This document shows positions 724 to 26,555 of a stretch of 26,555 bases of DNA, one piece after another (position 1 is the stretch's first letter; each line of letters starts with the position of its first letter). Below the pieces are notes generated by a model. That model was not told where the DNA came from and did not search any database. It saw only the letters and a list, made by a program, of their open reading frames with translations. The translations under genes and the position numbers were made by a program. This DNA comes from an uncultured Synergistia bacterium (GTDB lineage Bacteria > Eremiobacterota > SpSt-956 > JAKJGF01): assembly GCA_937888925.1 (NCBI GenBank), contig CALARM010000877.1, forward strand, positions 1 through 26,555, in the 5' to 3' direction.

Positions 724-1263
724 ATGGAACATAATTCTGACAGAAACATGACAAGAAGAGATTTTATCAAACTCGGAAGCGGTATTGCCGGTATATTACT
801 GGTTCCTTCTATTGTATCAGGCGTACAGGCAATGGAATATTTCAGTTCCATACCGAAATTCCCTGAAAATCCCGACGGACTCATATATTATACTGCCCAT
901 ATAGAAAACAACGGATGGGCAGACTGGTGCAAAGACGGAGAAGTCTGCGGCACACCTGATAATAAAAGAGCCATAGGAGCTATGGCAATCAAGTTTCGAG
1001 CAGGTATAGCATCCTATGAAGCATATCTGCAGGGCCTTTCCTGGACAGACTGGTACGGCAATGGAGATATATGCGGTTTTATAAATGGAGGACAGCCCTG
1101 GGGAGCTTTTAAAATAAGAGTGCCCAAAATAAGCGTTTTCTACAGAGCTCATTTTTATGGCTCAGGATGGACTCAGTGGTATAAAGATGGTAAAACATGC
1201 GGTTATACAGGCAAAGATAATAAAATTCTGAATGCAATAGAAATAACCTGCACAAAACCATAA
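724..1263 (+). CDS. Tat-exported ChW-repeat protein
   Basis: A 179-aa protein. Residues 10-36 form a twin-arginine signal (TRRDFIKLGSGIAGILL) with a likely cleavage site after VQA at residue 36, so it should be exported folded. The mature part is three hydrophobic-W (ChW) repeats of about 43 residues. Each carries the G-W-x-x-W...G...C-G core: GWADWCKDGEVCG, SWTDWYGNGDICG and GWTQWYKDGKTCG, followed by an aliphatic strand such as AIGAMAIKF. ChW repeats were described in Clostridium surface proteins and are thought to bind carbohydrate or protein at the cell surface. Pairing them with a Tat signal is unusual. The RBS AAGGAG at 710-715 supports the start. The stop codon TAA shares its last A with the ATG of the permease gene, so the two are probably translationally coupled and functionally linked. 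Confidence 0.85.
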   Translation: MEHNSDRNMTRRDFIKLGSGIAGILLVPSIVSGVQAMEYFSSIPKFPENPDGLIYYTAHIENNGWADWCKDGEVCGTPDNKRAIGAMAIKFRAGIASYEAYLQGLSWTDWYGNGDICGFINGGQPWGAFKIRVPKISVFYRAHFYGSGWTQWYKDGKTCGYTGKDNKILNAIEITCTKP

Positions 1264-2714
1264 TGAGAAAAAACATATTATCAAATATAAGCCTTAAACT
1301 GCCCCTGACAGCAGGGATTTTTTTACTTTTTATTCTGTTAATAAATAAAATAAGTCTCGAACCAAACTGTATTACAATGAATATAATCTCACCTGAAGAT
1401 GATGTATATCAACTGTTTTATGATAAAGGCAGAGGTTTTAATGAAGAGGATTCAATTAAAACTGAAGTAAAAAAAGGTGAAAATAATATAAAATTCTTCC
1501 AGTTGCCTCCAGGTAAATTCAATACAATAAGAATCGATGTTGGAGCAAAAGAGGGAGAAATAATAATAAAATCCATAAAATTTATTCATTATTTCAACAG
1601 TTTGTCTCTAAAAATCACCCTTTATAATTTTTCACCTGACGATATAAAAAAATCATTCAATCCTGAAGGCAAATTGACTTATTTGACCAGTAAAGACGGA
1701 GTGCTTCATGTTATATCTAAAGGCACAGATCCGGCCTTTATTTTCAAAGGAAATCTTGCACACATATACAGTAATATGTCAAAAACTATTCTGTATAAAA
1801 AATTATTTCTCTATATACCATCACTGTTTCTATCATTTCTTCTATCTATTTTACTAAATTTCGTCATCACCATTCTGAATTTAAGTGAACCGGTAGAAAG
1901 AAAAATAGGATATTTCAGGGAATTCTGTGTTTTTTTATGGCAGATGGTAAAGGACAGGAGAATCATTTTCGAGCTGACAAAAAAGGATTTTCAGACCAGA
2001 TATCTCGGTTCATATCTCGGTATCCTATGGGCTTTTGTCAATCCTACCGTAAATATTCTCATTATGTGGTTTGTTTTTCAGGTAGGATTTAAATCACAGC
2101 CTGTAGATAATTTCCCTTTTATACTCTGGCTTATATGTGGAATGCTGCCCTGGTTCTTCTTTGCCGAAGGTCTCAGCAGTGCCACAGGTTCCATACTGGA
2201 TAATAAATATCTCGTAAGTAAAGTAGTATTCAGAGTAAGTATATTACCTGTAATAAGAGTACTGTCAGCTCTGTCTATACACCTCTTTTTTATTCTGGTA
2301 ATATTTCTTATGTTTTTTGTATATGGTTATAAACCGGATATATATACATTACAGGTTCTGTATTATTTATTTGCAACAATTGTTTTACTGCTGGGCCTTT
2401 CGTGGATTACATCATCAATAGTTATCTTTATAAGGGATCTATCACAGGTAATAGGAGTAATATTACAGTTTTTTTTCTGGCTTACACCCATATTCTGGTC
2501 ACTCAAGATGGTACCTGAAAAAATGCACTGGTTTTTCAAAATGAATCCTGTTTATTATATAACAGAAGGATACAGAGAGACTTTCATATATAAAGTCTGG
2601 TTCTGGCAACATCCCTGTCTTATGCTTTACTTCTGGGGCTTTACACTTACCGTGTTTGTCATGGGAGCCCTCATATTCAGGAAACTGAGGCCCCATTATG
2701 CAGATGTTTTGTAG
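1263..2714 (+). CDS. ABC-2 polysaccharide-export permease with extracytoplasmic domain
   Basis: A 483-aa inner-membrane protein. Residues 220-483 are a classic ABC-2 permease of the Wzm/TagG/KpsM family: an amphipathic entry helix (LTKKDFQTRYLGSYLG), six hydrophobic segments, the NPVYYITEGYR region, and the signature C-terminus RKLRPHYADVL. Such proteins export lipid-linked polysaccharide (O-antigen, teichoic acid or capsule) with an ATPase partner. Before this lie a first membrane segment (about 12-30), a soluble domain of about 145 residues (35-180) that looks beta-rich, and a second segment (182-206). The soluble domain has the pattern LFYDKGRGFNEEDS and IRIDVGAKEGEIIIKSIKF, like accessory domains attached to O-antigen glycosyltransferases and permeases. 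It overlaps the ChW gene by one base. No ATPase gene follows, because the next gene is convergent. Function is firm at family level; the polysaccharide is unknown. Confidence 0.88.
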   Translation: MRKNILSNISLKLPLTAGIFLLFILLINKISLEPNCITMNIISPEDDVYQLFYDKGRGFNEEDSIKTEVKKGENNIKFFQLPPGKFNTIRIDVGAKEGEIIIKSIKFIHYFNSLSLKITLYNFSPDDIKKSFNPEGKLTYLTSKDGVLHVISKGTDPAFIFKGNLAHIYSNMSKTILYKKLFLYIPSLFLSFLLSILLNFVITILNLSEPVERKIGYFREFCVFLWQMVKDRRIIFELTKKDFQTRYLGSYLGILWAFVNPTVNILIMWFVFQVGFKSQPVDNFPFILWLICGMLPWFFFAEGLSSATGSILDNKYLVSKVVFRVSILPVIRVLSALSIHLFFILVIFLMFFVYGYKPDIYTLQVLYYLFATIVLLLGLSWITSSIVIFIRDLSQVIGVILQFFFWLTPIFWSLKMVPEKMHWFFKMNPVYYITEGYRETFIYKVWFWQHPCLMLYFWGFTLTVFVMGALIFRKLRPHYADVL

Positions 2715-2745: not shown

Positions 2746-5700
2746 TTATTTATAAAACTCTCCTAAAATATTCTGTGCTTCAATCTGTAATTCCGGGTGA
2801 TTGCTGCGAAGAGCACTCATAACATGGAGTAAAGCTTTATCTTTATTAATTTTCACCATATTCATGAGAGCAGAAATCTTTACTTCCAGAGTTCCTTCTC
2901 TTATGGAATTGGCAAGTCCATCTATTATATCTCCTTCATCTGGAGATAACTGTATTTCAAGTTTTTGAATATCTTTTCTTGTTAACCCCAGAGAACCGAT
3001 GTTTCTGAAATTTATATCACCATCGATTTCTTCGGAAGATAAAACAGAAAGTCCCGGGAAATCATGTTCAAGGAGTCGTCTTATCGAAAGACGACATTCG
3101 GAAGAAGACACTATTACAGGATTTAAAAAATCCGACTCTTTTGCTTCTTCAAGCTTTTTATTCACCACTTCAAAGAGATAACCCTGAAGTTTTTTTATGA
3201 CAGGCGATGAAGGTTTCACACTTTTAAGAAGTCTCATTATAAATTTTTCAAAGTCCCTTTCAAGGGTAAAACCGGCAATTTCTCCGGAATGATCAAGAAG
3301 TTCCCTGCAGATAATCTTTCTAAGGGATTTTCTTACATATTCCGATATTGTATCAGGCTGTCTGATATAAGAATAGATTGCCATAGTTTCAAAAATAACA
3401 TTCAAATTTCTTACAGGAATTCTCTCTTTTAATAAATTCCTCAGAACAAGGTGAATTTCCGTAAGAGAAAGTTTATGGGGATAAATTTCATCAACTACTA
3501 CAGGGTTTATTTTTTTCAATGCCTGAATTAACGATGCACTTTCCTGGAGTCCGAATAATTCTCCGACATGAGTTTTTATAACCTCTGACAGATGCATTAT
3601 AATAATATTTACCGGCTCAAAGATCATAAAATCTGTTTTTTCTGCTTCATACCTCTGAGATTGTTCAATCCAGACAGAAGGAAGGGAGTAAACAGGATCA
3701 TTACATTTTTCACCTTTTAAAATATCCAGAAGTTCTGCTTTATGGGTTGCAAGAAGTTTTCCCGGCCTCAGTTCTCCTCTTGCTGCTTCCACATCATAAA
3801 CCTTTAAGATATACATGCCGGAATTAATAAGCATATTATCACGGAAACATATTCGCGGCAAAGCAAATCCAAGTTCCAGAGCTATATGACGTCTGAGGGT
3901 TGCCAGTCTTTCCTGCAGTTCTCCCCCGTAATTGGGATCTATAAGAGAGAGAAGCTCTTTGCCTAATTCTATTGTAAGAGGCTCAAGAGGGATAATATTA
4001 AACACTTCTTCCGATTTTTCAAACTGCTCTGATGTTTCCTGGCAGAGAAAAGGAACAGACTGGGTTACATTAAGATGACGCCACATTATAGCGGAATAAA
4101 GGTTTTTATAGGGATGTTTAAGAGTCTCTCTGTCACAGTATCTCATAGCTTTCTGGTAGGACTGTGCTGCTTCTCTGGTCATTCCTCTCTCTTTATACAT
4201 ATCTCCGAGATCACTGTAATATATCGGCTCTCCGGGATTTAAACCTATGGCTCTTTCATAATGTTTTATGGCTTTGGTGTAATCTCCTTTTCTCGAATAT
4301 AAACCTCCAAGGGCATGATGGGCTTTATGGTTGAAATCACTTACTTTCAGACTCAAAAGGTATTCATCTTCCGCTTTATCGTAATTTCCCATAACCTCAT
4401 AGGTTTTTGCAAGATGATAGTTTGCATATAAATGCCTGGGGTTAATTTGAAGGATATTATTAAAATAATCTATTGCTTCATTGTATTTTCCTTCACTCAG
4501 GCTTATAATGCCAAGTCCTTCGTAAGCAGAACAGAAACGTCCGTTAAGTTCCAGACTTTTCTTATAAAATTCGACAGCCCTGTCTGAAATATTTTTTTCA
4601 TGGAATGCATGGCCCAGATGATAATAAATCTCTGATGCAGGTTTGATTTCTACAGCATGTGAAAGATAGTCAATTACATGGTCATAATCCTTCAATTCTC
4701 TGTAGAGAAGGGCTATCTGAAGATAATTCTGTATATTATCAGGTTCTAATTTTATCCTGTCAGATACGAAATTTACTCCCTTCAAAAATTCTTCTCTCGC
4801 CTTCTGTTCATTTCCCTGTCTTACAAGTACTATGCCTTTTTCCAGCGTACATATGGGAACTAAAGAAGGATTGAGGGAAAGGGCACTGTCAAAGCTATTA
4901 ATTGCCTGATCCAGCTTTCCTGTAAGGGCATAAAATCTTCCCAGTTCTATGTGAACCTCATAAAAGCCCGGCGCCATTCTGAGTGCTTCCTGATAATTTC
5001 TCTCAGAAAGATTCCACAGTCCCTGTTCCTGATAAACACGGGCAAGCTGTTTATGAGCCCAGGGAGAAGGTTTGAGCTTAATTGCCCTTTCATACATATT
5101 ACCTGCTTTTGTAAGTTCATACTGATGATAATAAATATCTCCCAGGCCTGAATAGTGTAAACTTTCTTCAGGTTCATAATCAATGGCCATACCGTAATAA
5201 AATACTGCGTTCTGGTAATCTTTTTTAAGAAAATAAAGAAGGCCCAGTATACCGAAAGGCCATCCTTCACTCGGATAAATTTCCGCCAGCTTTTCACCTC
5301 TCTCTATAGCTTCTTTATGATTTCCCTGATCACATAATAATATTATAAGAGCTCTGTAGGCTTCACCTGATTTCGGCTCCAACTTTATAGCTTTTTCATA
5401 ATTCTCAAGAGATTTCTTGAAATTCTTTATTTCTCTGCAGGCATTTCCGAGAGCAAGATAAAATACCGCTCTGGATTTATCAATAGATATAGCTTTTTCA
5501 AAACTTTTTATACTTTCTTCGTATTTTTCCAGTTTACCGTACAAAAGGCCGAGATTATAATAAACCATAGAAAAGCTCGGAGAATTTTCAAGAGATTTCT
5601 GGTAATAGTTCAGAGCTTCTTCATAGTTGCCGAGATGCATATAAACATCTCCCATACCTTTAAAAGCAAAGGCATCTTTTGCACTGAGACGAAGAGCCTT

Positions 5701-6117
5701 TCTGTGGTTGTTAAGGGCATCATGGTAACGACCGAGTTTTAGATAGGTATTTGCAAGGGCATTATAGGAATAAACATCCTGAGCATCAAGTTCGACAGAT
5801 TTGGAAAACTCTACCAGTGCATCATCAAATCTTCCCTCTTTGAAATAAGCATTACCCAGGTTATAATGTGTATACGCATCAGAAGGCTCAATCTCAAGGG
5901 CTCTCTGATAATTATCAATGGCAAGATGTATTTCTCCTTTATGATGATAGAGTCTTCCAAGGCGTAAAAAAGCTGTTGGCTCCTGGGTATCACTCTGAAC
6001 CTTTCTTTTATATTTATCAAACTCTTCTTCAAGATCATATTTATCAGGGTTATAATACTCGGTTTTTCTATAGGATCTTGTCAGTAATTTCTCAAAAAAA
6101 TTCTTTTCTCTTATCAC
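2746..6117 (-). CDS. Giant TPR protein fused to FlhA-type export domain
   Basis: About 1123 aa from the GTG at 6117, which has GAGGGG nine bases upstream. A TTG at 6150 would add 11 residues but has no RBS. In numbering from 6150, residues 45-690 are about nineteen TPRs of 34 aa. Residues 713-1055 match the cytosolic domain of FlhA (FHIPEP), the type III export gate protein. The conserved blocks appear in order: LEPLTIELGKELLSLID, IALELGFALPRICFRDN, ARGELRPGKLL, SLPSVWIEQSQ, HLSEVIKTHVGELFG and IRRLLEHDFPGLSVLSSEEI. Residues 1056-1134 look like HEAT-type helical repeats. The eight-helix membrane channel of FlhA is absent, so this cannot be an export gate by itself, and no flagellar gene is nearby. 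It probably acts as a cytoplasmic scaffold. No signal peptide or membrane segment is visible. Confidence 0.85.
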   Translation of the reverse strand: MIREKNFFEKLLTRSYRKTEYYNPDKYDLEEEFDKYKRKVQSDTQEPTAFLRLGRLYHHKGEIHLAIDNYQRALEIEPSDAYTHYNLGNAYFKEGRFDDALVEFSKSVELDAQDVYSYNALANTYLKLGRYHDALNNHRKALRLSAKDAFAFKGMGDVYMHLGNYEEALNYYQKSLENSPSFSMVYYNLGLLYGKLEKYEESIKSFEKAISIDKSRAVFYLALGNACREIKNFKKSLENYEKAIKLEPKSGEAYRALIILLCDQGNHKEAIERGEKLAEIYPSEGWPFGILGLLYFLKKDYQNAVFYYGMAIDYEPEESLHYSGLGDIYYHQYELTKAGNMYERAIKLKPSPWAHKQLARVYQEQGLWNLSERNYQEALRMAPGFYEVHIELGRFYALTGKLDQAINSFDSALSLNPSLVPICTLEKGIVLVRQGNEQKAREEFLKGVNFVSDRIKLEPDNIQNYLQIALLYRELKDYDHVIDYLSHAVEIKPASEIYYHLGHAFHEKNISDRAVEFYKKSLELNGRFCSAYEGLGIISLSEGKYNEAIDYFNNILQINPRHLYANYHLAKTYEVMGNYDKAEDEYLLSLKVSDFNHKAHHALGGLYSRKGDYTKAIKHYERAIGLNPGEPIYYSDLGDMYKERGMTREAAQSYQKAMRYCDRETLKHPYKNLYSAIMWRHLNVTQSVPFLCQETSEQFEKSEEVFNIIPLEPLTIELGKELLSLIDPNYGGELQERLATLRRHIALELGFALPRICFRDNMLINSGMYILKVYDVEAARGELRPGKLLATHKAELLDILKGEKCNDPVYSLPSVWIEQSQRYEAEKTDFMIFEPVNIIIMHLSEVIKTHVGELFGLQESASLIQALKKINPVVVDEIYPHKLSLTEIHLVLRNLLKERIPVRNLNVIFETMAIYSYIRQPDTISEYVRKSLRKIICRELLDHSGEIAGFTLERDFEKFIMRLLKSVKPSSPVIKKLQGYLFEVVNKKLEEAKESDFLNPVIVSSSECRLSIRRLLEHDFPGLSVLSSEEIDGDINFRNIGSLGLTRKDIQKLEIQLSPDEGDIIDGLANSIREGTLEVKISALMNMVKINKDKALLHVMSALRSNHPELQIEAQNILGEFYK

Positions 6118-6273: not shown

Positions 6274-6693
6274 TTAACAGTCCGTGAAAGGATTTAATAT
6301 AGTCAAATTGTTATCGATAATCTGACCATGTTGAAGATCTTCCGTATAAATAATATTGCATTCATTAACCAGAGAAGCAGATAAAATTAATCCATCCCAG
6401 TAAGAAAAATTATATTTTATTGACAATTTTATGGCTAATTCTATTACCTGTTTATCTATGAGGACTATTCTATAAGTATCAAAAAGGTTTTTAACAATCA
6501 TATCTAACTTTATCAGGTCTACATTATATTTTCTACTCATAATCCATACAAATTCATTTATAACCTGGGTACTGAGAATTATATTTTTATGATTGAGAAG
6601 CTCAATAGATTTATTTTTCTTATTCAATTCACTTATTGAATAAGCATATATCAAAATATTTGTATCAAGAAAGCTATTGTTGTTCATTGTCAT
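6274..6693 (-). CDS. PIN-domain toxin, VapC-like
   Basis: About 139 aa from the ATG at 6693 (the ATG at 6687 is also possible). It is a PIN-domain ribonuclease. Acidic active-site residues appear in the expected order: Asp in SFLDTNILIYAY, Glu in QVINEFVWIM, Asp in YWDGLILSASL and Asp in IIYTEDLQHG. VapC-type toxins cut specific RNAs, often tRNA or rRNA loops, and are held inactive by a co-translated antitoxin. The start lies inside the 3' end of the preceding small gene (overlap about 20 bp), the usual antitoxin-first arrangement with coupled translation. The reading frame extends upstream to 6732, but that part only overlaps the antitoxin. The family is clear; the RNA target is unknown. Confidence 0.85.
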   Translation of the reverse strand: MTMNNNSFLDTNILIYAYSISELNKKNKSIELLNHKNIILSTQVINEFVWIMSRKYNVDLIKLDMIVKNLFDTYRIVLIDKQVIELAIKLSIKYNFSYWDGLILSASLVNECNIIYTEDLQHGQIIDNNLTILNPFTDC

Positions 6694-6880
6694 AAATCTT
6701 TTCTCTATCAAATTTCCATTTTGTTGTATCAATATTTATCTGATTTATAAGTAGTTTATCAACTACACTTTCTTCATCAATCTTTATTGTAATATCTATA
6801 TTTTTATTACAAAATTCATCAGGGAGTTCAAAAGATAAAAAATTACTTTCCAATTTTAATTTTTTATGTAGTACACTCAT
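6674..6880 (-). CDS. Putative antitoxin for the PIN toxin
   Basis: A 68-aa protein translated from an ATG with a strong AAGGAGG nine bases upstream. Its place, immediately before and overlapping the PIN-domain toxin, makes it the likely antitoxin. The N-terminal half has a short beta pattern (LSFELPDEFCNKNIDITIKI) recalling small swapped-hairpin or VapB-like antitoxins. The charged C-terminal half (KWKFDREKIYDNEQQ) could be the segment that wraps the toxin. I cannot assign it to a named family with certainty. Such antitoxins normally bind their own promoter with the toxin. The 100-bp leader (6881-6985) should hold the promoter, but I see no clear operator. Confidence 0.7.
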   Translation of the reverse strand: MSVLHKKLKLESNFLSFELPDEFCNKNIDITIKIDEESVVDKLLINQINIDTTKWKFDREKIYDNEQQ

Positions 6881-7121: not shown

Positions 7122-7146
7122 TTAACAAAAAAAATCAGTAAATTTT
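7113..7146. other. Inferred left host/prophage junction
   Basis: Homology to the transporter remnant ends at about codon N3 (7113-7115), and the methylase stop codon begins at 7146. The boundary between host and phage DNA should therefore lie in this AT-rich 34-bp stretch, which includes TTAACAAAAAAAATCAG. An attachment core cannot be defined, because the other end of the prophage is outside the window and no second copy can be compared. Confidence 0.4.
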
Positions 7147-7952
7147 TAATAATTCATCCACAAACACTCCTCCCTATCTGGTTTCTCTTTTTTATTCTTC
7201 GCATAACTTGACGGGCAACTCACTACAGTTTTTACACGCCGCCATCCAGAATACAATTCTTCCATTAGCTTGCAATTGTATCCGGAGAGAGCTACTTTTC
7301 CTTTAACAACATGTAATACTTCTGATAATTTTACATGTTCCTCATCCGTCATCTCGAATTCGTAATCCTTGCCGGTTCTGGTAGATAACACATATGGCGG
7401 ATCGCAGTAAAAAAGAGTGTCTTCTGTATCGTAACATTTAATTACGTCAACAGCCGGGCGGTTTTCAATCTGCACGTCTTTAATTCTATTAATTGCCAGA
7501 ATGAGTTTTGTCAGTATATTTGCCCATCGTTTTGCCTGGCTCTGAGAGCCTTTGATACTATGTCCCCATCCGACTTTCCTGTTTTGAAGTCCACGTCCGG
7601 ACATAGACTGAGTAATAATAGTCAATACTCTTCTGGCTCTTTCCATGTCTGAATCAGCATTGTCACTGAATTCTTCCTTGTAGCATTTTTCGTATTCTTC
7701 CCGGGCGCAGGGAGTGAGATAAATTAAAGATAGAAATTGTAACGGCTTTTCTCTCAACACCTTAAAGAGATTGACTATTCTGCCGTTAAGATCGTTATAA
7801 ATTTCTACGGGGGAAGGTTCTCTATTGAGAAGTATATTCATACCGCCTCCATAGGGTTCCACGTAGGTGTTACAAGGCGGCAAGAGTGGAAGTATCCAAT
7901 CCGCCGAGTAGAATTTGCCTCCGATATACGGGAAGGCATTGATTTTTCTAAT
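7146..7952 (-). CDS. Dam-type adenine-N6 DNA methyltransferase, ATT start
   Basis: About 269 aa of a D12-class (Dam-like) adenine methylase. Blocks seen are FPYIGGKFYSADW (N-terminal SAM-pocket lysine region), TYVEPYGGGMNILLNRE (motif I, glycine-rich SAM loop) and FYCDPPYVLS (catalytic motif IV, DPPY). The usual minimal frame begins at a TTG at 7883, which would cut off the first conserved block. The homologous protein continues 23 codons upstream to ATT at 7952-7950. A perfect AAGGAGG lies seven bases before that ATT, and no ATG, GTG or TTG lies at a suitable distance in this frame. Either ATT is the real start, as in infC, or an ATG has mutated. It is the last gene of the phage operon. Likely roles are modifying phage DNA against host restriction or regulation; the target site is unknown. 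Confidence 0.85.
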   Translation of the reverse strand: MRKINAFPYIGGKFYSADWILPLLPPCNTYVEPYGGGMNILLNREPSPVEIYNDLNGRIVNLFKVLREKPLQFLSLIYLTPCAREEYEKCYKEEFSDNADSDMERARRVLTIITQSMSGRGLQNRKVGWGHSIKGSQSQAKRWANILTKLILAINRIKDVQIENRPAVDVIKCYDTEDTLFYCDPPYVLSTRTGKDYEFEMTDEEHVKLSEVLHVVKGKVALSGYNCKLMEELYSGWRRVKTVVSCPSSYAKNKKEKPDREECLWMNY

Positions 7953-7959
7953 AAAAATT

Positions 7960-7966
7960 CCTCCTT
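7960..7966 (-). promoter_or_regulatory. Ribosome binding site that fixes the ATT start
   Basis: On the minus strand AAGGAGG (7966-7960) is followed by AATTTTT and then ATT at 7952. The seven-base spacing is ideal, and the frame it opens restores the missing conserved N-terminus of the methylase. ATT at 7958-7956 is also in frame but too close to the site. Confidence 0.65.
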
Positions 7967-7972
7967 TATAAT

Positions 7973-8017
7973 AAAATAGTATACTCTTAAATATAATAAT
8001 CTAAAGTATACTATTTT
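7973..8017. promoter_or_regulatory. Operator-like dyad upstream of the methylase
   Basis: A perfect inverted repeat: AAAATAGTATACT at 7973-7985 and AGTATACTATTTT at 8005-8017, with a 19-base AT-only spacer except for its C residues. The core AGTATACT is itself palindromic, so two copies lie 27 bp apart, as in paired repressor or regulator sites. It fills most of the 74-bp gap between the endolysin and methylase genes, the longest gap in the phage operon. A minus-strand -10-like TATACT overlaps the dyad. It could also form a weak AT-rich hairpin in RNA. An operator/promoter is the better reading; this is inference. Confidence 0.5.
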
Positions 8018-8026
8018 TTAATATCA

Positions 8027-9259
8027 CTATTTTTCTAACAATTCCAAATTATACCATTTCACATATTTGCACGAAGTAATAGGCCTGTCATATTTATATC
8101 TTATTCCATCATCTAAATTCCCTTCTATAGTGGTAATGGTTTTTCCGTCCAGATTAACTTTCACGACAAACCCGGTATGAAGGGGTTTTCCAGTGGCTGA
8201 ATCTATCAATAAAAATACATCCTTTTCTGCCGGTGTTTGGCTGTAAATTCCCTTTTGCCGGGCCCACTCTTCCATTGCCCATGTATCCCCTGTCTTCGGA
8301 TTGTCTATTCCTGCCTGGCCGATTACCCAGCAGGTGAAGGCAGCACACCAGGGGTTCCCCTCAGAAAGTCCGACATATTCAAGATATTTTTTTACCTGTG
8401 GGCCTGAATTACTCCCATTTATTTCTTTAAAGTCCTGTCCTCCGAGTTTTCTTTCTTTCTCGCATATTTCAATGACATCTGTTATTACATTTGTCTTTAC
8501 TTCAGTTTTTATTGGTTCTTCCCTGCTTTCCAAAGGATTTTCGTTTAACCATCTGGCTTTTTCATCTCCAAGTTTACGGAGATCCAAAATAAGGACTTTT
8601 TTTCCATCTTCTCCTGAAAAAGAATAAGCCTTCGGAGGGTTCTGCTGAAAATCTATATATATGCCTTTGCAGTCTATTGGTTTTAAAGGATACATTGTTA
8701 TTTTATCATTCGACACGGATTTAATCTCCTTTTCATTATTAATTAATTGCTTTAAAGCCTCATCTCTATTCAGCCAACCCTGAAGAAAAATCTTTTGAGA
8801 AGGAGCTTCCTGGCATCTGGTATATCTGTATTTCTTCCTATTCTCCACTATTTTTAAAGCAAAATCTTTATTATTATTTTTCAGTAGTTTTTCTCTTGTA
8901 GTATCGCCATAGAGACCTGTCATTTCAATATTTAAAGCTTCCTGGATAAATATAATCATTCCAGATACGCCGAAGTTGACGGCGGTATCAAAAAGAACTT
9001 GAAGTAATTCGTGAATAAGAATATCAACTTCTGGTATCACTTTAAAATATTTATCGAAATATATAGTCTTTACAGTATCGAGTGATATATCCTTCACATC
9101 TGCCTTGTTTTTTTTATTGTCTGCAAGCCATTTATTATATACCACTTGGGTTATACCATGATTTGTTCTACCTCCGGGATCTGCTGGATTGTCTACAAAA
9201 CCGCCTTCCCATTGCAGAACAAAATCTATACATTGATTGAATTTATCTATTAGAGTCAT
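8027..9259 (-). CDS. Two-domain endolysin: GH108 muramidase plus CHAP
   Basis: A 410-aa cytoplasmic lysis enzyme without a signal peptide. Residues 1-105 are a glycoside hydrolase 108 N-acetylmuramidase: the catalytic Glu18 lies in FVLQWEGGFVDNPADPGG, followed by TNHGITQ. A peptidoglycan-binding-like helical part follows to about residue 170. After a linker of about 90 residues, residues 265-405 form a CHAP amidase/endopeptidase with the catalytic Cys in NPWCAAFTCWVIG (about 304) and His in LHTGFVVKV (about 361), then TTIEGN. Together these would cut glycan and peptide of the host wall. The RBS AAGGTG lies five bases before the ATG. It sits downstream of the small membrane and coiled-coil genes that probably control its access to the wall. 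Passage across the membrane would depend on a holin. Confidence 0.88.
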   Translation of the reverse strand: MTLIDKFNQCIDFVLQWEGGFVDNPADPGGRTNHGITQVVYNKWLADNKKNKADVKDISLDTVKTIYFDKYFKVIPEVDILIHELLQVLFDTAVNFGVSGMIIFIQEALNIEMTGLYGDTTREKLLKNNNKDFALKIVENRKKYRYTRCQEAPSQKIFLQGWLNRDEALKQLINNEKEIKSVSNDKITMYPLKPIDCKGIYIDFQQNPPKAYSFSGEDGKKVLILDLRKLGDEKARWLNENPLESREEPIKTEVKTNVITDVIEICEKERKLGGQDFKEINGSNSGPQVKKYLEYVGLSEGNPWCAAFTCWVIGQAGIDNPKTGDTWAMEEWARQKGIYSQTPAEKDVFLLIDSATGKPLHTGFVVKVNLDGKTITTIEGNLDDGIRYKYDRPITSCKYVKWYNLELLEK

Positions 9260-9267
9260 AAAGCACC

Positions 9268-9723
9268 TTATTCTTTCTTTACCAGAGAATTTATAAGTCC
9301 TACTATAGATATTACTTCTTTTGTTTTCTTAATTACAGTATCGACAGTATTTTTATCTTCTTCTTTAACATTTAGTTCTTCGGGCTTGTCGATAAATTCT
9401 GTGACAGTTTTTATTACTCCCAGATCTATATTTGGAAGACAAGAAGCTACAGCAATATTAGTTTTTTCTTTTCCTTTTGCACCTGTTTCTTCTGCTTCTT
9501 CTATACCATTTAGATTATCAATAAGCTGTTTTTCGTATTTTTCCAGAAGTTCAATCGCTAATTGCACTGCAGGAGGAAAGAAAGATTTGAAAGTATTAAG
9601 AAAGGTAAATATTGCATCGTCGTATTTATCTATCTTAATTGCAGATTTTTTAAGCATTTCTTTAAATAATTCAATTCTGGCCCATACGTCCCTTACTTTG
9701 TCTATTACTCCTATAAAACTCAT
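9268..9723 (-). CDS. Phage protein of unknown function in lysis block
   Basis: A 151-aa soluble, mostly helical protein with no recognised domain. Two weakly hydrophobic stretches occur, around residues 35-60 (FLNTFKSFFPPAVQLAIELL) and near the end (VISIVGLINSLV), separated by an acidic Lys/Glu-rich part. AAGGAG precedes the ATG by about 11 bases, and the gene ends nine bases before the endolysin start, so the two are co-translated. Position suggests a part in lysis, possibly as a membrane-associated holin-like or regulatory protein, but the hydrophobic segments are too short and polar to call a holin. Confidence 0.6.
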   Translation of the reverse strand: MSFIGVIDKVRDVWARIELFKEMLKKSAIKIDKYDDAIFTFLNTFKSFFPPAVQLAIELLEKYEKQLIDNLNGIEEAEETGAKGKEKTNIAVASCLPNIDLGVIKTVTEFIDKPEELNVKEEDKNTVDTVIKKTKEVISIVGLINSLVKKE

Positions 9724-9740
9724 AAATATACACTCCTTTT

Positions 9741-9938
9741 TTATTTTATCGGCTCAAAATTCAAGCAGGTTTCTTGATTTTTACAGATTTTATTATGCCT
9801 TTCCTCTGCAGTTTTAATCAGTTCTAAAAACTCTTTTTTTTTCTCTTTAAATTTCAAATCGACACTCTCTTTAATTTTGTCAACGCCGTCCTTGATTTCA
9901 CTATTCATCTCATCGAAAAATTCATTTACTGACTCCAT
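9741..9938 (-). CDS. Small coiled-coil phage protein
   Basis: A 65-aa protein, highly charged and predicted helical for its first 50 residues (IKDGVDKIKESVDLKFKEKK). Two cysteines near the C-terminus (ICKNQETC) are spaced like a small disulfide or metal knuckle. It overlaps the end of the upstream membrane-protein gene by 13 bp, as overlapping lysis-gene pairs often do. No lipobox or signal is present, so an outer-membrane spanin cannot be claimed. Function unknown. Confidence 0.55.
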   Translation of the reverse strand: MESVNEFFDEMNSEIKDGVDKIKESVDLKFKEKKKEFLELIKTAEERHNKICKNQETCLNFEPIK

Positions 9939-10336
9939 AATTTTTCCAATTCTCCTTTCAAATTTTTTATTTCTTCAGAGAGCCTTAAAATTGTCTCTCC
10001 GTCTTTTTTTAAGGCCTCAGTAAATTGATCGATAATTTTATAATGTTCTATAGAGCACTGGCGTAATTCATCATTCTTTTTTTCATTTTTATCACTCCAG
10101 TATTTTTCACGTTCAAGAAATTTATCTTTCCATTCCGTTTCTTTTTTTTCTAATTTTTTGTCGAATTCCGCCCTATCTCTCCTGGCAAGAAAATAAATAA
10201 TACCAATAACAGGAGCAACCGCCAAAAGTCCGAGAATAACGATAAAGAGAAATAAATAACTTTCATCTGCTGTCGTGAGTAAATGACTCCAATATTGCTG
10301 TAAATAAGATTGTGATTGCTCTGCTATAAAAAACAT
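9926..10336 (-). CDS. Single-span membrane protein with coiled coil (holin/spanin candidate)
   Basis: A 136-aa protein with one strong transmembrane helix at about residues 27-50 (LFLFIVILGLLAVAPVIGII). A positively charged stop (ARRDR) follows, then a long charged coiled coil (residues 58-136, for example KKLEKKETEWKDKFLEREK). By the positive-inside rule the coiled coil is cytoplasmic, unlike an inner-membrane spanin, whose coiled coil faces the periplasm. It would fit a single-span holin or a membrane-bound regulator better. AGGAGG precedes the ATG. It is the first gene of the lysis block, and its last codons overlap the next gene. Confidence 0.6.
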   Translation of the reverse strand: MFFIAEQSQSYLQQYWSHLLTTADESYLFLFIVILGLLAVAPVIGIIYFLARRDRAEFDKKLEKKETEWKDKFLEREKYWSDKNEKKNDELRQCSIEHYKIIDQFTEALKKDGETILRLSEEIKNLKGELEKLWSQ

Positions 10337-10383
10337 TTTAATCCTCCTCTATATAGTATCCAGTAATAATTAAAAAACAGATC

Positions 10384-11433
10384 TCAATTATTTTTCTCAT
10401 TCAACTTCCTTATCCCTGGATTTAAATTCAGTCCTTTGTCCAGGTCGACTTTTTCAGTGCCTATGAGCCTCTTAATTCGATCTTTATATTTCTCTTCAAA
10501 AGCTGTTATTTTCTCAACACTCTGCACCTTCTGAAGATATTTCCTTTCCTGCGGCATGATATTTTTGTCAAAATCTATATATTTCGGAATGTCTATCACT
10601 GCTACAGGAAAGCCCTGAATAGTGTGTTTCTCTCTGATTTCCGGTGAGTCATGTTCTATTTTCGTCATATCATATTCAAAGAGCTTTGAGGCTCTATATG
10701 CCTCCTGTAAATCAGAGTGAAGAGGAAGGGCGAAATAATCTTTATAAATCTTACTGCCTGTCGTAGTTTCATTTATTAAGTCATACTCTTCTTTTACTTT
10801 TTCAAACTGTTCTTCGCTGATAAGACCTTCTTCTTTATCCTTTTCTGCCTGTTGTAAATCAGCCATTGCCTGTAAATAGTCAACCCATATTTTACTGTCA
10901 AAAAGAGCAGTATATTCCTTAGTATTCTTTAATTCTTTATCTATATTGTCTATATTATTTTTTAATTCCTCTTTCTGCCTTACGTTTTCATTCATAATCT
11001 CTTCACACAGGTCCCTGGATTGCTTTGAATACTGATTATGAATTATGGATTTTTGAATTCTCTGAGGAGTTTCGGCATTGATGATTTTTCCCTGTATATC
11101 TTCAAGGTCTAACTCCCAGGTATCAGGTTGAGAATTGTTATCTCCCTGGGTCTTTACTTTTTTATTTTTTGTTATTTCTACTACCCTATGCACCACATAC
11201 TTTCCTGACTCTCTATTTCCTATTTTTGCTTCAGGCTTTACTATTATTATGTCTCCTGTTTTTACATCATCTATATCTTTATATCTTCCACAGTCAACCA
11301 TATCACCCTCATTAAACGTCGGTCCCATAGAGGAGCCGGTATAATAGAAAGTCATTAACGGTAAGCTGTAAGGATCTATTTCTTCCTCTGGCAATTCTTC
11401 TATTTTTTCTTCTTTTTTCTGTATTTTGTCCAC
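10384..11433 (-). CDS. S26 signal-peptidase-like protein with long helical tail
   Basis: A 349-aa protein from a GTG start placed directly after the TAA of the kinase-like gene; the RBS GAGGTGAT lies within that gene's end. Residues 28-120 are an S24/S26 serine peptidase fold: Ser35 in TGSSMGPTFNEGDMV, a GDIIIVKP strand, His82 in VVHRVVEIT, and Asp98 in KTQGDNNSQPD. His instead of Lys as the second catalytic residue is the archaeal/ER signal peptidase pattern. Similar soluble peptidases occur in peptide-modification clusters together with HPr-kinase-like proteins. No membrane anchor or helix-turn-helix is present, so it is neither LepB nor a LexA/CI repressor. Residues 130-349 are a charged, largely helical extension with no recognised family. 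The substrate may be a phage tail or peptide product; this is inference. Confidence 0.72.
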   Translation of the reverse strand: MDKIQKKEEKIEELPEEEIDPYSLPLMTFYYTGSSMGPTFNEGDMVDCGRYKDIDDVKTGDIIIVKPEAKIGNRESGKYVVHRVVEITKNKKVKTQGDNNSQPDTWELDLEDIQGKIINAETPQRIQKSIIHNQYSKQSRDLCEEIMNENVRQKEELKNNIDNIDKELKNTKEYTALFDSKIWVDYLQAMADLQQAEKDKEEGLISEEQFEKVKEEYDLINETTTGSKIYKDYFALPLHSDLQEAYRASKLFEYDMTKIEHDSPEIREKHTIQGFPVAVIDIPKYIDFDKNIMPQERKYLQKVQSVEKITAFEEKYKDRIKRLIGTEKVDLDKGLNLNPGIRKLNEKNN

Positions 11434-12252
11434 TTATATCACCTCTTCAATTTTCTTTAAAGTTTCTCCATGTAAGCTGTGCTTTAAGATAAATGTATCG
11501 TAAGTCTTTATAATATTAAAAGCATTATGAAAAATTTGAGTCCTTAAAGCCCTGGCTTCATCTTTTGACAGAGTATTAAAGTTCTGTCTTATTAATTCAG
11601 TAGAAGAATTCATAAGTCTGTATAGTGCTTCATCTTTCTCTATATTTACCACTGAGTCTATATCTGTTTTTTCTAGGAAAAACATAGCTTTAACAGGTAT
11701 TCCCCTGGCAGTATTCCACTGAGTTTTAAGTGCCTGGTCTTTTTTGTGTAAAAAATAACTCCATGTGGGGAAAGGATAGGCTTTTCCATTCAGGAATATC
11801 GTCACATCGTCAGACAGGGCTTTCCAGGGCTTCACTGCTTTTCTTGCACATTTGCTTTTACCTGAAGAGTTTTGACCGGCAAGGATTACTCCTGACCTGT
11901 TTTTCTCAAGTAAAGTACTATGGATAATCAATCCACCGGCCTGTATAATCTCTCTGAATATAGGAAAGAAAAAAGACTGTTTCATTAGTTGAAAGTCCTG
12001 CTCTTCATCTTTCTTCTCTCCTATATCGTAGAGAATATCTTTCACTATATTATGAGTGGCATAATTATCATGAGTCTGCCATCCCCACCGGAAAGGATGT
12101 CTGTTTATGATATCCTGAAAATTTCCACGGAATAAAACAATACGAGAAGAAGCATTACCATCTTTAAGCTTCATTATAGATGTCAGCTTTTCAACAAAGC
12201 ACCTATCACCTATGAATTTCCATGAAAGATTATCTATTTTAAGAGTACTCAT
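11434..12252 (-). CDS. HPr-kinase/ScmC-like P-loop protein
   Basis: A 272-aa protein. The core resembles the C-terminal domain of HPr kinase as found in ScmC proteins of peptide-modification cassettes: GGLIIHSTLLEK, then Walker A at residues 126-133 (GQNSSGKS), KALSDDVTIF with the acidic pair at 148-149, and the family marker PFPTWSYF at 160-167. HPr itself and the HPr-kinase N-terminal domain are absent. Related proteins accompany PqqD-like chaperones, radical SAM enzymes or S24/S26 peptidases in RiPP clusters, where their exact reaction is mostly unknown. Here the gene starts directly after the fibre gene stop (TAA then ATG), with GGAG eight bases upstream, and its own stop abuts the peptidase start. 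The three genes should therefore be expressed in fixed ratio. The family is well supported; the substrate is unknown. Confidence 0.75.
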   Translation of the reverse strand: MSTLKIDNLSWKFIGDRCFVEKLTSIMKLKDGNASSRIVLFRGNFQDIINRHPFRWGWQTHDNYATHNIVKDILYDIGEKKDEEQDFQLMKQSFFFPIFREIIQAGGLIIHSTLLEKNRSGVILAGQNSSGKSKCARKAVKPWKALSDDVTIFLNGKAYPFPTWSYFLHKKDQALKTQWNTARGIPVKAMFFLEKTDIDSVVNIEKDEALYRLMNSSTELIRQNFNTLSKDEARALRTQIFHNAFNIIKTYDTFILKHSLHGETLKKIEEVI

Positions 12253-15200
12253 TTAAGTCGCTCCGAAATGATTAATTGGTATATTTATCCATCTGGTAGG
12301 TATCCCACTGAAAAATATATTCTGTCTGTTTATCCCGTAACTATTCGTCTGAGTAGAAGTTAAGGCATTTATAATGGTCCAGTTTTCCCCGGCATCTTCT
12401 GAGACAGCCACATATTTCTGAGTGGCTGTTCCTGCTACTCTCGTAGGAGAGCAAGAAACAAGGACTTTATTCCCTGCTATATTTTTGAATTCCTGAACTT
12501 CTTCATTTGTTAAGAATGTTTTCTTTAATGTCCAGGTGTTTCCATAATCTGAGGATTTCCATACTTTTCCTGCCTGGTCTCCTGCTAACACTATACCGCC
12601 GCCTAAGTCAGCAAAATGCCTCACTTTGATTGCTGAAAGAGTCTGTTTTAATAGCCATGTTTCTCCTGAGTCTGTCGATTTGTATATGGCTCCTGAACGT
12701 GTCCCCGCAAGCACTATTCCACTACCGAGATTAATCATGCATCGAACATTGGCAGTAGCAGTCTGAGTATAGAGATCGCCCTTGCTTACCCATGTTGCAC
12801 CGCTATTGATTGATTTATAAACTGTTGCCCCTGAGCCTGTTCCCGAAGGCCTTGTTCCTGCAAGTATTACTCCATTGCCCAGATTACAGAAACAACTTGC
12901 TCTTTCCTGTGTTCCCAGTGTAGTTACCAATGTCCAGGTAGTCCCATAATTTAAAGTCTCATATATTTTTGCTCCGCTTGCACCAAATTTTACCCCTGAA
13001 GTAGCAGCCAATATATGACCATTACCCAGATCGCAAAAGTCTCTCACACATGCGGCAGTTCCAAGCTGCCCCTGAGAAGTCCAGTTTACTCCCCAGTCAG
13101 ATGTGTAATAAACTTTTCCTGTTGCTCTCGTTCCTATCATTGCCTTGCCACCGCCAAGGTCAATAATGGTATAAATATATTCTCCCGCTGCAAGTGTTTT
13201 CTGATATTCAGTAATGGCATAAGAGAGATCTTCTACTGTAATAGTTCCTGCTGTTCCTGCACCACTCCCCCACTGACTGACATAAGCCAGAGAAGAATTA
13301 AACTTCTGAATTCTATTGTTTCCAGTATCAGAAACATACATATTGTCAGAGCCATCTATTTTAATCCATTCGGGAGATGTGAAATTACCGTTACCTGTCC
13401 CGACTGTACCGAATTGAGAATCATATACACCTGCAGAAGTGAATTTCTGGACTCTATTATTTGTGGTATCTACTACAAAAATGTTTCCTGCTGCATCAAA
13501 TGCTATTCCTCTGGGTGAATTAAATTGTCCGTTACCAGTGCCCGCAGAACCAAAATTACTCGAATAAAGAGATGGAGGAGTAAACTTCTGTAATCTGTTG
13601 TTTGTAGTATCTACTATATATAAATTCCCACTGGCATCAAATACAAGGCCCGTAGGAGTATTAAATTGTCCATTACCTGTCCCTGTGGCTCCGAAGCTTG
13701 CATTATAGACTGCTGCAGAAGTAAATCTCTGGACTCGATGATTACCTGAGTCTGTTACGAATATATTGCCTGAAGAGTCAAAAGCTATGTCCCTGGGAGA
13801 AGAAAAGTTTGTTGTACCACTTCCCGAAGTGCCCCATTTTGTAGAATAAGCCATGGCAGAAGTATATTTAACGACTCTATGATTGCCAGTGTCTACAATA
13901 AATACGTTATTGCTGCCATCGAGAATTATTCCCCTGGGTGATGAGAAATTTGTATTGCCTGTGCCACTACTGCCGAATTTTGTAACATAAACTCCTGAAC
14001 TATTAAATTTCTGCACTCTGTGATTTCCCGTATCTACAACAAATATATTGCCTGAAGAGTCAAAAGCTATTCCGGTAGGTGTGTTAAACTGTCCGTTACC
14101 CGTACCACTACTTCCAAATTTTGACTGATACACACCTGCTGAATTAAACTTTTGCACTCTATGATTACCGGAATCGGTGATATATATATTATCAGAGCCG
14201 TCTATCTTTATTCCTCTGGGAGAAGAAAGCTGACCGTCTCCACTCCCTGATCCACCAAATTGACTTACATATGCCCCTGTGGAGTCAAATTTCTGGACTC
14301 TATGATTTGAAGTATCTACAACGAAGAAATTGCCTCCACTGTCTTTAGCTACTGCATAAGGAGCAGAAAGCTGTCCGTCTCCTGCACCTACTGTCCCAAA
14401 TTGAGAAGAGTAAAGAGAGGGAGGTGTAAATTTTTGAACTCTGTTATTCCCGGTATCTGTTACGAATATATTATTTGAAGTGTCCAGAACAATTCCTCTG
14501 GGAGAAGAAAGCTGTCCTGTTGCACTTCCACTGGCTCCGAATTGTGCCTGATATACCCCGGCAGATGTAAACTGCTGAATTCTATTATTACTTGTATCAG
14601 CTATAAATATATTCCCAGAACTGTCAAATGCTATTCCACGAGGAGAATTAAATAGTCCATTTGTTGAGCCGGAAGAGCCAAATTGACTTACATAAGTCCC
14701 GGAACTATCAAACTTCTGTATTCTTTTATTAACTGTATCTACCACAAATATATTTCCTGCCCCGTCGATTGCAATACATTCAGGAGAAGAGAGAAGGCCA
14801 TCCGTAGCTCCGTATGATCCGAATTTTGATTGATAGACTTCAGAAGAATTGAATTTCTGTATTCTGTTATTTGTCGTATCGACTACAAGAATATTACCGC
14901 TGCTATCTATTGCTATTCCCCTGGGTGAAGCAAAATGACCATTCTCGGATGCTGTAGAGCCATCAGCAGTAATACTTCCGGCAAGAGTAAAAGCACCGGC
15001 ATAATATATATGAACAGTTCCACCATTTTTAACAGACACTTCAGGCCCGGCATACCCATCGGCCGTAATCTCACCTGTAGCTCCTATGGAGACATTGCCA
15101 CTGCAGTAAAGATTAATTATTCCACCGTCTCCTATGGCCCCTCCTGAGTTAATAGTGAAAGTCTTTATTTTCCAATCAAAGGCATTATTAAAGCCCATGT

Positions 15201-15546
15201 CTTTCATTGAAACGACTTTTTGATTATCATAGCCGAAAAAGCCATAGACGTTATTTACAATATTTTCTGCCCGGACTATCCCTTTTGCATTAAGAGAAAT
15301 AATACCGTTTATAATTGCATTGCCATTAACGATAATATCCCATCTCTGGCATCTGTTTGTTAATCCCCATGTTACTCCGGCATCTATCGTTAAATTTTTG
15401 CATCTGGTAACAATAGCAGGACCATCCTCAATACTCTCAATATTTGTATTCACGGTAATATGAATATCCTGAAGGTCATTGCTTTTTTTTGAAAAATTAA
15501 TATTTGTATCGAGATAGTCAAAAGCAAGTTTTTCAATCTGTTGCAT
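12253..15546 (-). CDS. Tail fibre with NHL and Asp-box beta-propellers
   Basis: A 1097-aa protein. Residues 1-205 are Gly/Ile/Asn-rich with beta-helix character (GGAIGDGGIINLYCSGNV), fitting a tail-attachment region. Residues 206-769 are exactly twelve 47-aa NHL repeats, each of the form SPRGIAFDSSGNIFVVDT, N-R-hydrophobic-Q-K-F, FG-x-x-G. This is enough for two six-bladed propellers. Residues 770-1097 contain six Asp-box motifs (TSDWGVNW, TLNYGTTW, SINSGATW, STDSGETW, SSDYGNTW, SEDAGENW), typical of a third propeller of sialidase or Ycf48-like shape. The sialidase arginine triad is not evident, so binding rather than catalysis is likely. It is the largest late protein after the tape measure and the most downstream of the tail genes. 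Host receptor binding is the best guess. Confidence 0.75.
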   Translation of the reverse strand: MQQIEKLAFDYLDTNINFSKKSNDLQDIHITVNTNIESIEDGPAIVTRCKNLTIDAGVTWGLTNRCQRWDIIVNGNAIINGIISLNAKGIVRAENIVNNVYGFFGYDNQKVVSMKDMGFNNAFDWKIKTFTINSGGAIGDGGIINLYCSGNVSIGATGEITADGYAGPEVSVKNGGTVHIYYAGAFTLAGSITADGSTASENGHFASPRGIAIDSSGNILVVDTTNNRIQKFNSSEVYQSKFGSYGATDGLLSSPECIAIDGAGNIFVVDTVNKRIQKFDSSGTYVSQFGSSGSTNGLFNSPRGIAFDSSGNIFIADTSNNRIQQFTSAGVYQAQFGASGSATGQLSSPRGIVLDTSNNIFVTDTGNNRVQKFTPPSLYSSQFGTVGAGDGQLSAPYAVAKDSGGNFFVVDTSNHRVQKFDSTGAYVSQFGGSGSGDGQLSSPRGIKIDGSDNIYITDSGNHRVQKFNSAGVYQSKFGSSGTGNGQFNTPTGIAFDSSGNIFVVDTGNHRVQKFNSSGVYVTKFGSSGTGNTNFSSPRGIILDGSNNVFIVDTGNHRVVKYTSAMAYSTKWGTSGSGTTNFSSPRDIAFDSSGNIFVTDSGNHRVQRFTSAAVYNASFGATGTGNGQFNTPTGLVFDASGNLYIVDTTNNRLQKFTPPSLYSSNFGSAGTGNGQFNSPRGIAFDAAGNIFVVDTTNNRVQKFTSAGVYDSQFGTVGTGNGNFTSPEWIKIDGSDNMYVSDTGNNRIQKFNSSLAYVSQWGSGAGTAGTITVEDLSYAITEYQKTLAAGEYIYTIIDLGGGKAMIGTRATGKVYYTSDWGVNWTSQGQLGTAACVRDFCDLGNGHILAATSGVKFGASGAKIYETLNYGTTWTLVTTLGTQERASCFCNLGNGVILAGTRPSGTGSGATVYKSINSGATWVSKGDLYTQTATANVRCMINLGSGIVLAGTRSGAIYKSTDSGETWLLKQTLSAIKVRHFADLGGGIVLAGDQAGKVWKSSDYGNTWTLKKTFLTNEEVQEFKNIAGNKVLVSCSPTRVAGTATQKYVAVSEDAGENWTIINALTSTQTNSYGINRQNIFFSGIPTRWINIPINHFGAT
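13240..14931 (-). repeat. Twelve in-frame 141-bp repeats encoding NHL units
   Basis: The repeat block is 1692 bp, exactly 12 x 141, without a single insertion or deletion between units. Some units share long identical DNA stretches while others differ strongly. For example TGCCTGAAGAGTCAAAAGC occurs near 13760 and again near 14050, and the TPPSLYSS-encoding segment occurs in units 4 and 10. This indicates copying between units. Confidence 0.85.
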
Positions 15547-15560
15547 TTTGCATCACTCCA

Positions 15561-15866
15561 TTATTCGAAAGTAACACAGTAAATCTTATCGCTTAATGTT
15601 CCGAGAACATAGAGAATATAAGGGTCTATAAAGTAAAGTACTCTTACCTCTCCAGGGCTCAGGTAATCAGAATTATCTGTAGTTATACTAGAACCGCCAT
15701 AGTAGACATCTCCGCTATTATTTTTACTCGCTCTTATAATTAATATTTTTTTTGAAGAAGATGTTTCTGAAAGTCTCTGTGCTGTTGCAGTGATAGTCAC
15801 TTTCCAGTTGCTTACACTGTCTATCATGTATTTTGATGTTACTTCTTGAATTGAATGTAATTGCAT
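15561..15866 (-). CDS. Small beta-sheet phage structural protein
   Basis: A 101-aa protein with alternating strands: VTITATAQRLSETSSSKKIL, ASKNNSGDVYYGG, LSPGEVRVLYFIDP and YVLGTLSDKIYCVTF. This layout resembles small decoration or fibre-base proteins found in many phages, with the phrases N-S-G-D-V-Y-Y-G-G and L-S-P-G-E. AAGGAG lies seven bases before the ATG. It sits between the Hint-domain protein and the fibre, and could be an adaptor for the fibre. The family is recognised only by pattern. Confidence 0.6.
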   Translation of the reverse strand: MQLHSIQEVTSKYMIDSVSNWKVTITATAQRLSETSSSKKILIIRASKNNSGDVYYGGSSITTDNSDYLSPGEVRVLYFIDPYILYVLGTLSDKIYCVTFE

Positions 15867-15886
15867 ATTATCGCTCCTTTTTTAAA

Positions 15887-17475: not shown

Positions 17476-17493
17476 AAAAAATTTTATCTTTCG

Positions 17494-19179: not shown

Positions 19180-19180
19180 T

Positions 19181-20458: not shown

Positions 20459-20470
20459 ATTTGTTCTCCT

Positions 20471-20887: not shown

Positions 20888-20905
20888 CGAGATTTCTCCA
20901 TTATA

Positions 20906-25003: not shown

Positions 25004-25027
25004 AATATTCGAGCTTCCCTTTCATTT

Positions 25028-26089: not shown

Positions 26090-26094
26090 AGAAT

Positions 26095-26103
26095 TCACCT
26101 CCT
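26095..26103 (-). promoter_or_regulatory. Full-length Shine-Dalgarno that sets a TTG start
   Basis: On the minus strand AGGAGGTGA (26103-26095) matches the 16S anti-Shine-Dalgarno in nine positions. The TTG at 26089 follows after five bases, measured from its end. The in-frame GTG at 26098 is part of the site and cannot be used with it. A very strong site on a weak start codon suits a protein made in large amounts. Confidence 0.65.
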
Positions 26104-26104
26104 A

Positions 26105-26554: not shown

Positions 26555-26555
26555 A

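Follow-up and report, generated by a model that had tools for sequence, protein, structure and literature searches.

We confirmed that a gene in a 26,555-nucleotide stretch of DNA from an uncultured Synergistia bacterium (GTDB phylum Eremiobacterota; contig CALARM010000877.1 of assembly GCA_937888925.1; hereafter the window) fuses an array of tetratricopeptide repeats (TPRs) to the cytosolic domain of the flagellar export protein FlhA (FlhA_C), with the membrane part of FlhA missing. In flagellar export, cargo docks on FlhA_C; to our knowledge it is not settled if this domain can function apart from the membrane channel. The FlhA_C part of the gene descends from FlhA, similar genes have expanded in related genomes into what is apparently a large, undescribed family of detached FlhA_C genes, and one relative also carries companion flagellar genes. 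We tentatively read the protein, with a confidence that falls slightly short of even, as a soluble docking adaptor, derived from FlhA, that would serve a flagellar export apparatus lacking a filament, with the TPRs holding the client.

A TPR array joined to FlhA_C without the export channel

The fusion is encoded by a single uninterrupted gene on the minus strand (6117-2746) with no internal stop. The first TTG of the open reading frame (ORF) lies at 6150, and a GTG at 6117 starts nine bases 3' of a likely ribosome-binding site. Since the product of the GTG start (MIREKNFFEK...) agrees with the N-terminus of relatives (MLKEKNFFEK), GTG 6117 is the likely start, giving a protein of 1123 amino acids and agreeing with the gene limits of 2746-6117 proposed in a first-pass annotation of the window. 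Residue numbers below refer to the 1134-residue ORF from TTG 6150, in which the likely GTG start is residue 12. The features of the gene are as follows.

2746..6117, minus strand: whole gene, comprising TPR array, FlhA_C and HEAT-like tail; GTG start, 1123 amino acids
6127..6135, minus strand: AGAGAGGGG, judged from its sequence to be the likely ribosome-binding site of GTG 6117
4138..6033, minus strand: TPR superhelix of about 18 helical hairpins (ORF residues 40-671), from Pfam, the full-length model and fold matches
4036..4137, minus strand: linker between TPRs and FlhA_C (residues 672-705), its second half of low model confidence
2989..4035, minus strand: FlhA/FHIPEP cytosolic domain without the membrane part (residues 706-1054), from profiles, a crystal structure match and a model
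3595..3753, minus strand: chaperone-binding dimple region (residues 800-852), mapped via the alignment to 3mix
2749..2988, minus strand: helical tail, HEAT-like (residues 1055-1134); conserved in relatives and without a Pfam match

Profiles, a crystal structure and a predicted model all identify the C-terminal part as FlhA_C. The FHIPEP family (PF00771) matches residues 706-1046 with profile positions 314-656 of 657 (E = 2.3e-76; 258 bits against a cut-off of 29.1), and residues 690-1134 taken alone match it with E = 2.4e-77; within these residues FHIPEP was the sole Pfam family at E up to 0.001, with no FlhB cytosolic domain. The FlhA model TIGR01398 covers residues 706-1053 (E = 4.9e-80; 270 bits, well below its full-length cut-off of 772), and the crystal structure of Bacillus subtilis FlhA_C (3mix) aligns to residues 708-1054 (E = 7.9e-54). 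The cytosolic domain of SctV has the same fold and matches more weakly, with 133 bits for the SctV model against 270 for the FlhA model; no identified SctV was present in the tree described below. An AlphaFold model of residues 690-1134, built from 34 sequences, had a mean predicted local distance difference test (pLDDT) score of 91.4, and its 13 best PDB matches were all FlhA_C chains (TM-score to target 0.85-0.91). The FlhA membrane domain with its FHIPEP loop had no match in the protein, whose N-terminal part is TPR. The central claim of the first-pass annotation, an FlhA_C with a TPR array in place of the export channel, is therefore upheld by profiles and models, and the four FlhA motifs that it quoted are all found in the translated gene.

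That annotation had also considered a frameshift joining two separate genes. Five relatives drawn from several sources (P0002-P0005 and P0007), which are 57-95% identical to the window protein in their C-terminal part, have the same junction between TPRs and FlhA_C, and first and second codon positions are less divergent than third positions in both halves of the gene. Together with the uninterrupted reading frame, these findings make an assembly or annotation artefact very unlikely, to a degree that we regard as negligible.

In the TPR region PF00515 matches in 16 stretches, and a predicted model of the full-length protein has 37 helices, or about 18 hairpins, between residues 40 and 671. The fold matches of this model span residues 33-693 and are uninformative for other parts. 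It was built from seven sequences and is poor over FlhA_C (block pLDDT 22-64 over residues 701-950), so that the model of residues 690-1134 is the one to trust for that domain. Class II chaperones of the SycD/LcrH type, which are small proteins of about three TPRs encoded within the type III secretion system (T3SS) locus, offer another comparison, and the window protein scores 123.5 with their NCBIfam model TIGR02552 (cut-off 104.8); six repeat stretches contribute to this score, and the unrelated TPR families MamA and PilW also pass their cut-offs. Unlike these chaperones, the window protein has about 18 hairpins tied covalently to a docking domain. The tail, described earlier as HEAT-like repeats, is indeed helical and modelled with high confidence; it has no Pfam match, and the HEAT likeness is a judgement by eye only.

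Relatives and the family of detached FlhA_C genes

A search with residues 700-1134 retrieved 72 proteins, six of which (P0002-P0007) have TPRs ahead of FlhA_C, with identities over the matched part of 95, 90, 57, 58, 55 and 61%, respectively. P0006 lacks most of the TPRs, and P0007 is cut inside FlhA_C. The other 66 proteins are 669-762 amino acids long with FHIPEP as their sole domain. Within a species collection, which was scanned with two patterns within the TPRs that other builds would escape, the window-type gene was found at one locus in one genome, UR.bin48 (G001). This genome is labelled Bacillota and its matching protein (P0004) Candidatus Eremiobacteraeota; it stands in for the window's own genome in the comparison of flagellar gene sets. 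No relative was found in the viral contigs searched.

UR.bin48 contains 12 FHIPEP matches, comprising one full-length FlhA, one membrane-only FlhA and ten C-terminal rows, of which two lie within one ORF and one is a short piece. Among the matches listed for 58 relatives (UR.bin48 included), which we read by hand, at least 30 genomes had a C-terminal-only FHIPEP match, and 24 of those 30 also had one match spanning the full FlhA profile. Full-length matches only were listed for 25 genomes and none for two (G026 and G046); G005 had two weak FHIPEP matches outside those listed. Genomes of 7-8 Mb carried up to 16 FHIPEP matches. Widespread, too, is a short form about 460 amino acids long: in an alignment search with it, from which the best 120 of 170 matches were taken, 69 of the proteins P0074-P0144 had no membrane part. 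Nine proteins of this set carry organism names (Candidatus Eremiobacteraeota, 1; Vulcanimicrobiota, 1; Candidatus Xenobia, 2; Armatimonadetes, 1; Firmicutes, 1; "bacterium", 3). NCBI places Candidatus Xenobia in Vulcanimicrobiota, and, judging by these few names, the group with detached FlhA_C as a whole probably corresponds to class Xenobia. Three proteins (P0075, P0084 and P0087) are named "FHIPEP family type III secretion protein" in the database and are channel-less FlhA_C, and in this group such a label need not mean an export gate.

We do not claim that detached FlhA_C is restricted to Xenobia. A few short FlhA_C-only ORFs lie on long contigs, for example P0207 (365 amino acids, on a 126-kb Selenihalanaerobacter contig), which may be either a split flhA or a genuine detached form. 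The best 120 of 2775 hits in a broad FlhA search contained no unmatched N-terminal extension of more than 40 residues. We found no publication on detached FlhA_C in the titles and abstract openings of open-licence PMC papers. FlhX, a stand-alone FlhB cytosolic domain, is similar in that the cytosolic domain of an export-gate protein exists without its membrane part; it differs in deriving from FlhB rather than FlhA and in having no repeat array, and we do not know of it as an expanded family.

Some of the detached genes are themselves fusions. We scanned 28 ORFs with Pfam, 27 of them detached (the remaining one, L060, keeps a weak membrane-domain match), and found over the cut-off FliG_N in nine, the FlhB cytosolic part (FlhB_C) in three, TPRs in two and ankyrin repeats in one. 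Four ORFs had sub-threshold zinc-finger or FliG_N hits alone, and nine (L060 included) had nothing else. C2H2 zinc fingers in L070, L077, L081 and L082, as well as FliG_N in L040:10080-12602 and L062, were all under the cut-off and were not retained. As some of the scanned ORFs are orthologous by tree or likeness (L054/L058; L071/L080/L084/L086; L074/L078), fusion events are fewer than these counts. In one sibling the FliG_N segment shares 63% identity with its own genome's FliG across 63 residues, and in another it shares 48% identity with a relative's FliG across 54. The FlhB motif NPTH was not seen by eye in the FlhB pieces of the sibling fusions. A 127-residue ORF (L096:3582-3962) consists of an FlhB cytosolic piece alone, and an ORF of 1137 amino acids (L046:6065-9475) that reaches the contig end has two FlhA_C-like stretches. 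Detached FlhA_C genes occur in adjacent pairs in L040, L072, L079 and L083.

Origin of the fusion

A careful tree of FlhA_C domains (54, a chosen subset of 124 rows) groups the six window-type proteins in one clade (100/100). This clade joins four detached domains of UR.bin48 and that genome's own full-length FlhA (bootstrap 95 / SH-like approximate likelihood ratio test 95). The short form makes up a separate clade (100/100). Forcing the 22 detached rows into one group costs 34.7 log units (approximately unbiased test, p = 0.025), and we therefore rejected a single origin of all detached forms; the test result is modest and covers 54 of the 124 rows, the constrained group was named after the first tree, and several long-branched detached rows are unsurely placed. 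The separate clades and this test indicate that detachment probably occurred more than once, and the window type probably arose from the lineage's own FlhA. In that event the cytosolic half of FlhA would have been copied, leaving the membrane half behind, and joined to a TPR superhelix.

Flagellar genes in genomes with detached FlhA_C

Elsewhere in its genome UR.bin48 carries FliF, FliG, FliM, FliN, FliH, FliI, FliP, FlhA, pieces of FlhB and rod genes. Pfam confirms FliP, FliI, FliM, FliN, FliH, FliF, FliG_N, two rod proteins and an FlgE/F/G-like protein, and this genome gave no match to flagellin or FliS. A similar picture emerges across the 58 genomes, all drafts without completeness figures. 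Of the 30 with detached FlhA_C, ten have flagellin and 20 show none. Among these 20, FliP is found in 17, FliF in 17 and rod-type genes in 19 (0-4 matches per genome, against 5-13 in the ten with flagellin), and FliS in none, as compared to nine of the ten with flagellin. A hook protein may also be present. Vulcanimicrobium alpinus, of the same phylum, is reported to have neither flagella nor a flagellin gene (excerpt of PMC9758169).

A FliP, FliF or rod match occurs in 29 of the 30 genomes, with only G021 lacking all three. FliP was not found in G021, G035 and G043. The idea that detached FlhA_C persists in the absence of any T3SS was dropped, as G035 and G043 have rod genes and G043 also FliF; these two are more likely incomplete genomes than T3SS-free ones.

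In UR.bin48 we also found an FlhA membrane domain standing on its own, 352 amino acids long and with its own start and stop (L044:414-1469; G001:C333). It matches PF00771 positions 1-298 (E = 2.2e-56), has no cytosolic domain, and is closest to the genome's own FlhA (40% identity). No clear equivalent was found in the other 57 genomes, where a 252-residue frame in G047 may reflect a cut contig. This suggests that in one genome, UR.bin48, the export gate may be split in two.

A proposed adaptor for a distant export apparatus, and its alternatives

The first-pass annotation had offered three roles for the protein: a reused docking ring, an adaptor for a distant flagellar or type III system, and a new scaffold. 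The adaptor fits best, because UR.bin48 has basal-body and export genes elsewhere in its genome. A docking ring is the less supported option, since GYXLI and positions 440, 442 and T490, which are linked to chaperone docking and domain motion, are changed. In the adaptor mechanism the TPR array would hold a client protein, or the chaperone of that client, and FlhA_C would deliver it to the export apparatus. To do so FlhA_C might join or cap the FlhA ring, or bind partners among FlhA, FlhB and FliH-I-J. The paralogues, with their different recognition domains, would form a set of exchangeable adaptors for cargo or control, all serving one filament-less flagellar secretion machine. We keep the link to export mainly because siblings fuse FliG_N and FlhB_C, parts of the same basal body. 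The strong constraint on the TPRs and the FlhA-like conservation of the subdomains, both given below, also speak for the adaptor.

The window protein resembles FlhA in its FlhA_C fold, whole-domain sequence match and ancestry, and differs from it in lacking the membrane domain, in the TPRs placed in front and in standing outside any flagellar operon. The chaperone-binding dimple is part likeness and part difference. Dimple positions 440, 442, 456, 459, 461 and 490 of Salmonella FlhA (listed in an excerpt of PMC10965912) map to T802, K804, D818, Y821, L823 and M852. D456, which hydrogen-bonds a chaperone tyrosine (excerpt of PMC5932034), is kept in all six window-type proteins, as is an aromatic residue at 459 (F changed to Y).

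Several observations weigh against the adaptor, and our doubt about the export link comes mainly from two of them, the altered dimple and the scattered gene positions. Position 440 is T in all six window-type proteins and 442 is K in five and D in one; 490 is M in four and I in two. L461, essential for complexes in Salmonella (excerpt of PMC5932034), is kept in just four of the six, which slightly lowers the case for an adaptor and slightly raises that for a scaffold. In Salmonella T490M bypasses the loss of FlgN and FliJ (excerpt of PMC7955116). This position is T in 115 of 116 broad FlhA proteins and in 34 of the 37 lineage genes that have a membrane part; among detached forms, T is found in 59 of the 69 short proteins and in 23 of the 49 rows from the fetched loci (L001 and some short forms among them). 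The dimple looks re-cut rather than lost, to judge by the alignment, with a T gained at 440 and one lost at 490. The GYXLI motif is GKELL or similar, with K or R at Y369 in six of six, whereas 112 of 116 broad FlhA proteins have Y or F there. The lineage has an FlhA type with R instead of this Y (R-type), seen in 16 of the 37 fetched genes that have a membrane part, the lineage's own FlhA included. Regarding gene position, none of the ten window neighbours scanned (some window ORFs were unscanned) is a flagellar or T3SS gene, in agreement with the earlier remark that no secretion genes lie nearby, and the ORFs of L001, read by eye, place its gene outside any secretion cluster. Where identified, the siblings' neighbours are mostly housekeeping genes: L054/L058 adjoin genes for single-stranded DNA-binding protein, ribosomal proteins and DnaB (identified by eye), short forms lie next to RNase PH and a SIS protein, and L071 is flanked by an AI-2E transporter, an FHA/cyclase protein and an acyl-CoA dehydrogenase. 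Finally, the FlhA_C of the window type diverges faster than the TPRs (identity to P0004 of 74% for the TPRs, 55% for FlhA_C and 65% for the tail), and on these figures the TPRs are the most constrained part of the protein.

These points, together with the ankyrin repeats of one sibling, are what a repurposed scaffold would explain, in which FlhA_C would be a general module for oligomerisation or peptide binding that has lost its link to export, with the fused domains providing new cytosolic functions. We consider this explanation doubtful but a substantial possibility, as it leaves the FliG_N and FlhB_C fusions unexplained and sits poorly with the FliP, FliF or rod matches in 29 of the 30 genomes. 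It also sits poorly with the constraint on the subdomains: conservation of D1, D2 and D3-D4 was 0.69, 0.63 and 0.45 in the window type and 0.66, 0.67 and 0.45 in full-length R-type FlhA (with approximate borders and protein pairs at 45-65% identity), so that this comparison, which looked for loss of the ring, revealed no clear difference from FlhA. UR.bin48, the sole genome found with a window-type fusion and also the one encoding the membrane-only FlhA, suggests that channel and docking ring could be separate polypeptides that pair in trans. Such a split gate is improbable, since it concerns a single genome, which has the two genes on separate contigs and a full-length FlhA as well, and a clear membrane-only equivalent was not found in the remaining 57 genomes, of which 29 have detached FlhA_C. 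We likewise give little credence to a decoy that titrates chaperones or substrates off the gate as a brake on export: a soluble FlhA_C with part of the dimple kept is compatible with it, but the altered dimple is at odds with a decoy, which ought to imitate FlhA at that site, and the distinct recognition domains of the paralogues suggest more than titration.

If adaptors of this kind do serve a filament-less basal body, they would represent a flagellum turned into a secretion machine with a modular choice of cargo. Extending the adaptor explanation to Candidatus Xenobia at large, with a filament-less basal body that secretes, soluble exchangeable FlhA_C adaptors that set its cargo and one lineage that split its FlhA, seems to us rather unlikely as a complete account. 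In any case, the family provides natural soluble versions of FlhA_C for study, and the FliG_N and FlhB_C fusions point to likely neighbours.

Near L071 and L080 a second full-length FlhA lies some 5-10 kb off, with metabolic and signalling genes in between. The FHA/cyclase protein near L071 matches the T3SS family Yop-YscD_cpl; a general FHA model scores higher, and this candidate was discarded.

Genomic neighbourhood in the window

The window and L001 have in common two genes next to the fusion gene, the first of which is convergent to it.

1263..2714, plus strand: ATP-binding cassette ABC-2 type exporter permease, convergent to the fusion gene; also adjoins the gene in L001
724..1263, plus strand: ChW (clostridial hydrophobic W) repeat protein; also adjoins the gene in L001

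Directly upstream of the fusion gene, in an AT-rich stretch, is a gene for a PIN-domain protein (6274-6732). Positions 7146-26555 on the minus strand form a block that appears to be phage-like from its content, with a D12 DNA methyltransferase, a lysin combining glycoside hydrolase family 108 (GH108) and CHAP domains, and large ORFs of 1097 and 1171 amino acids. Within this block, a 249-residue ORF (15887-16636) contains a Hint (intein-like) domain.

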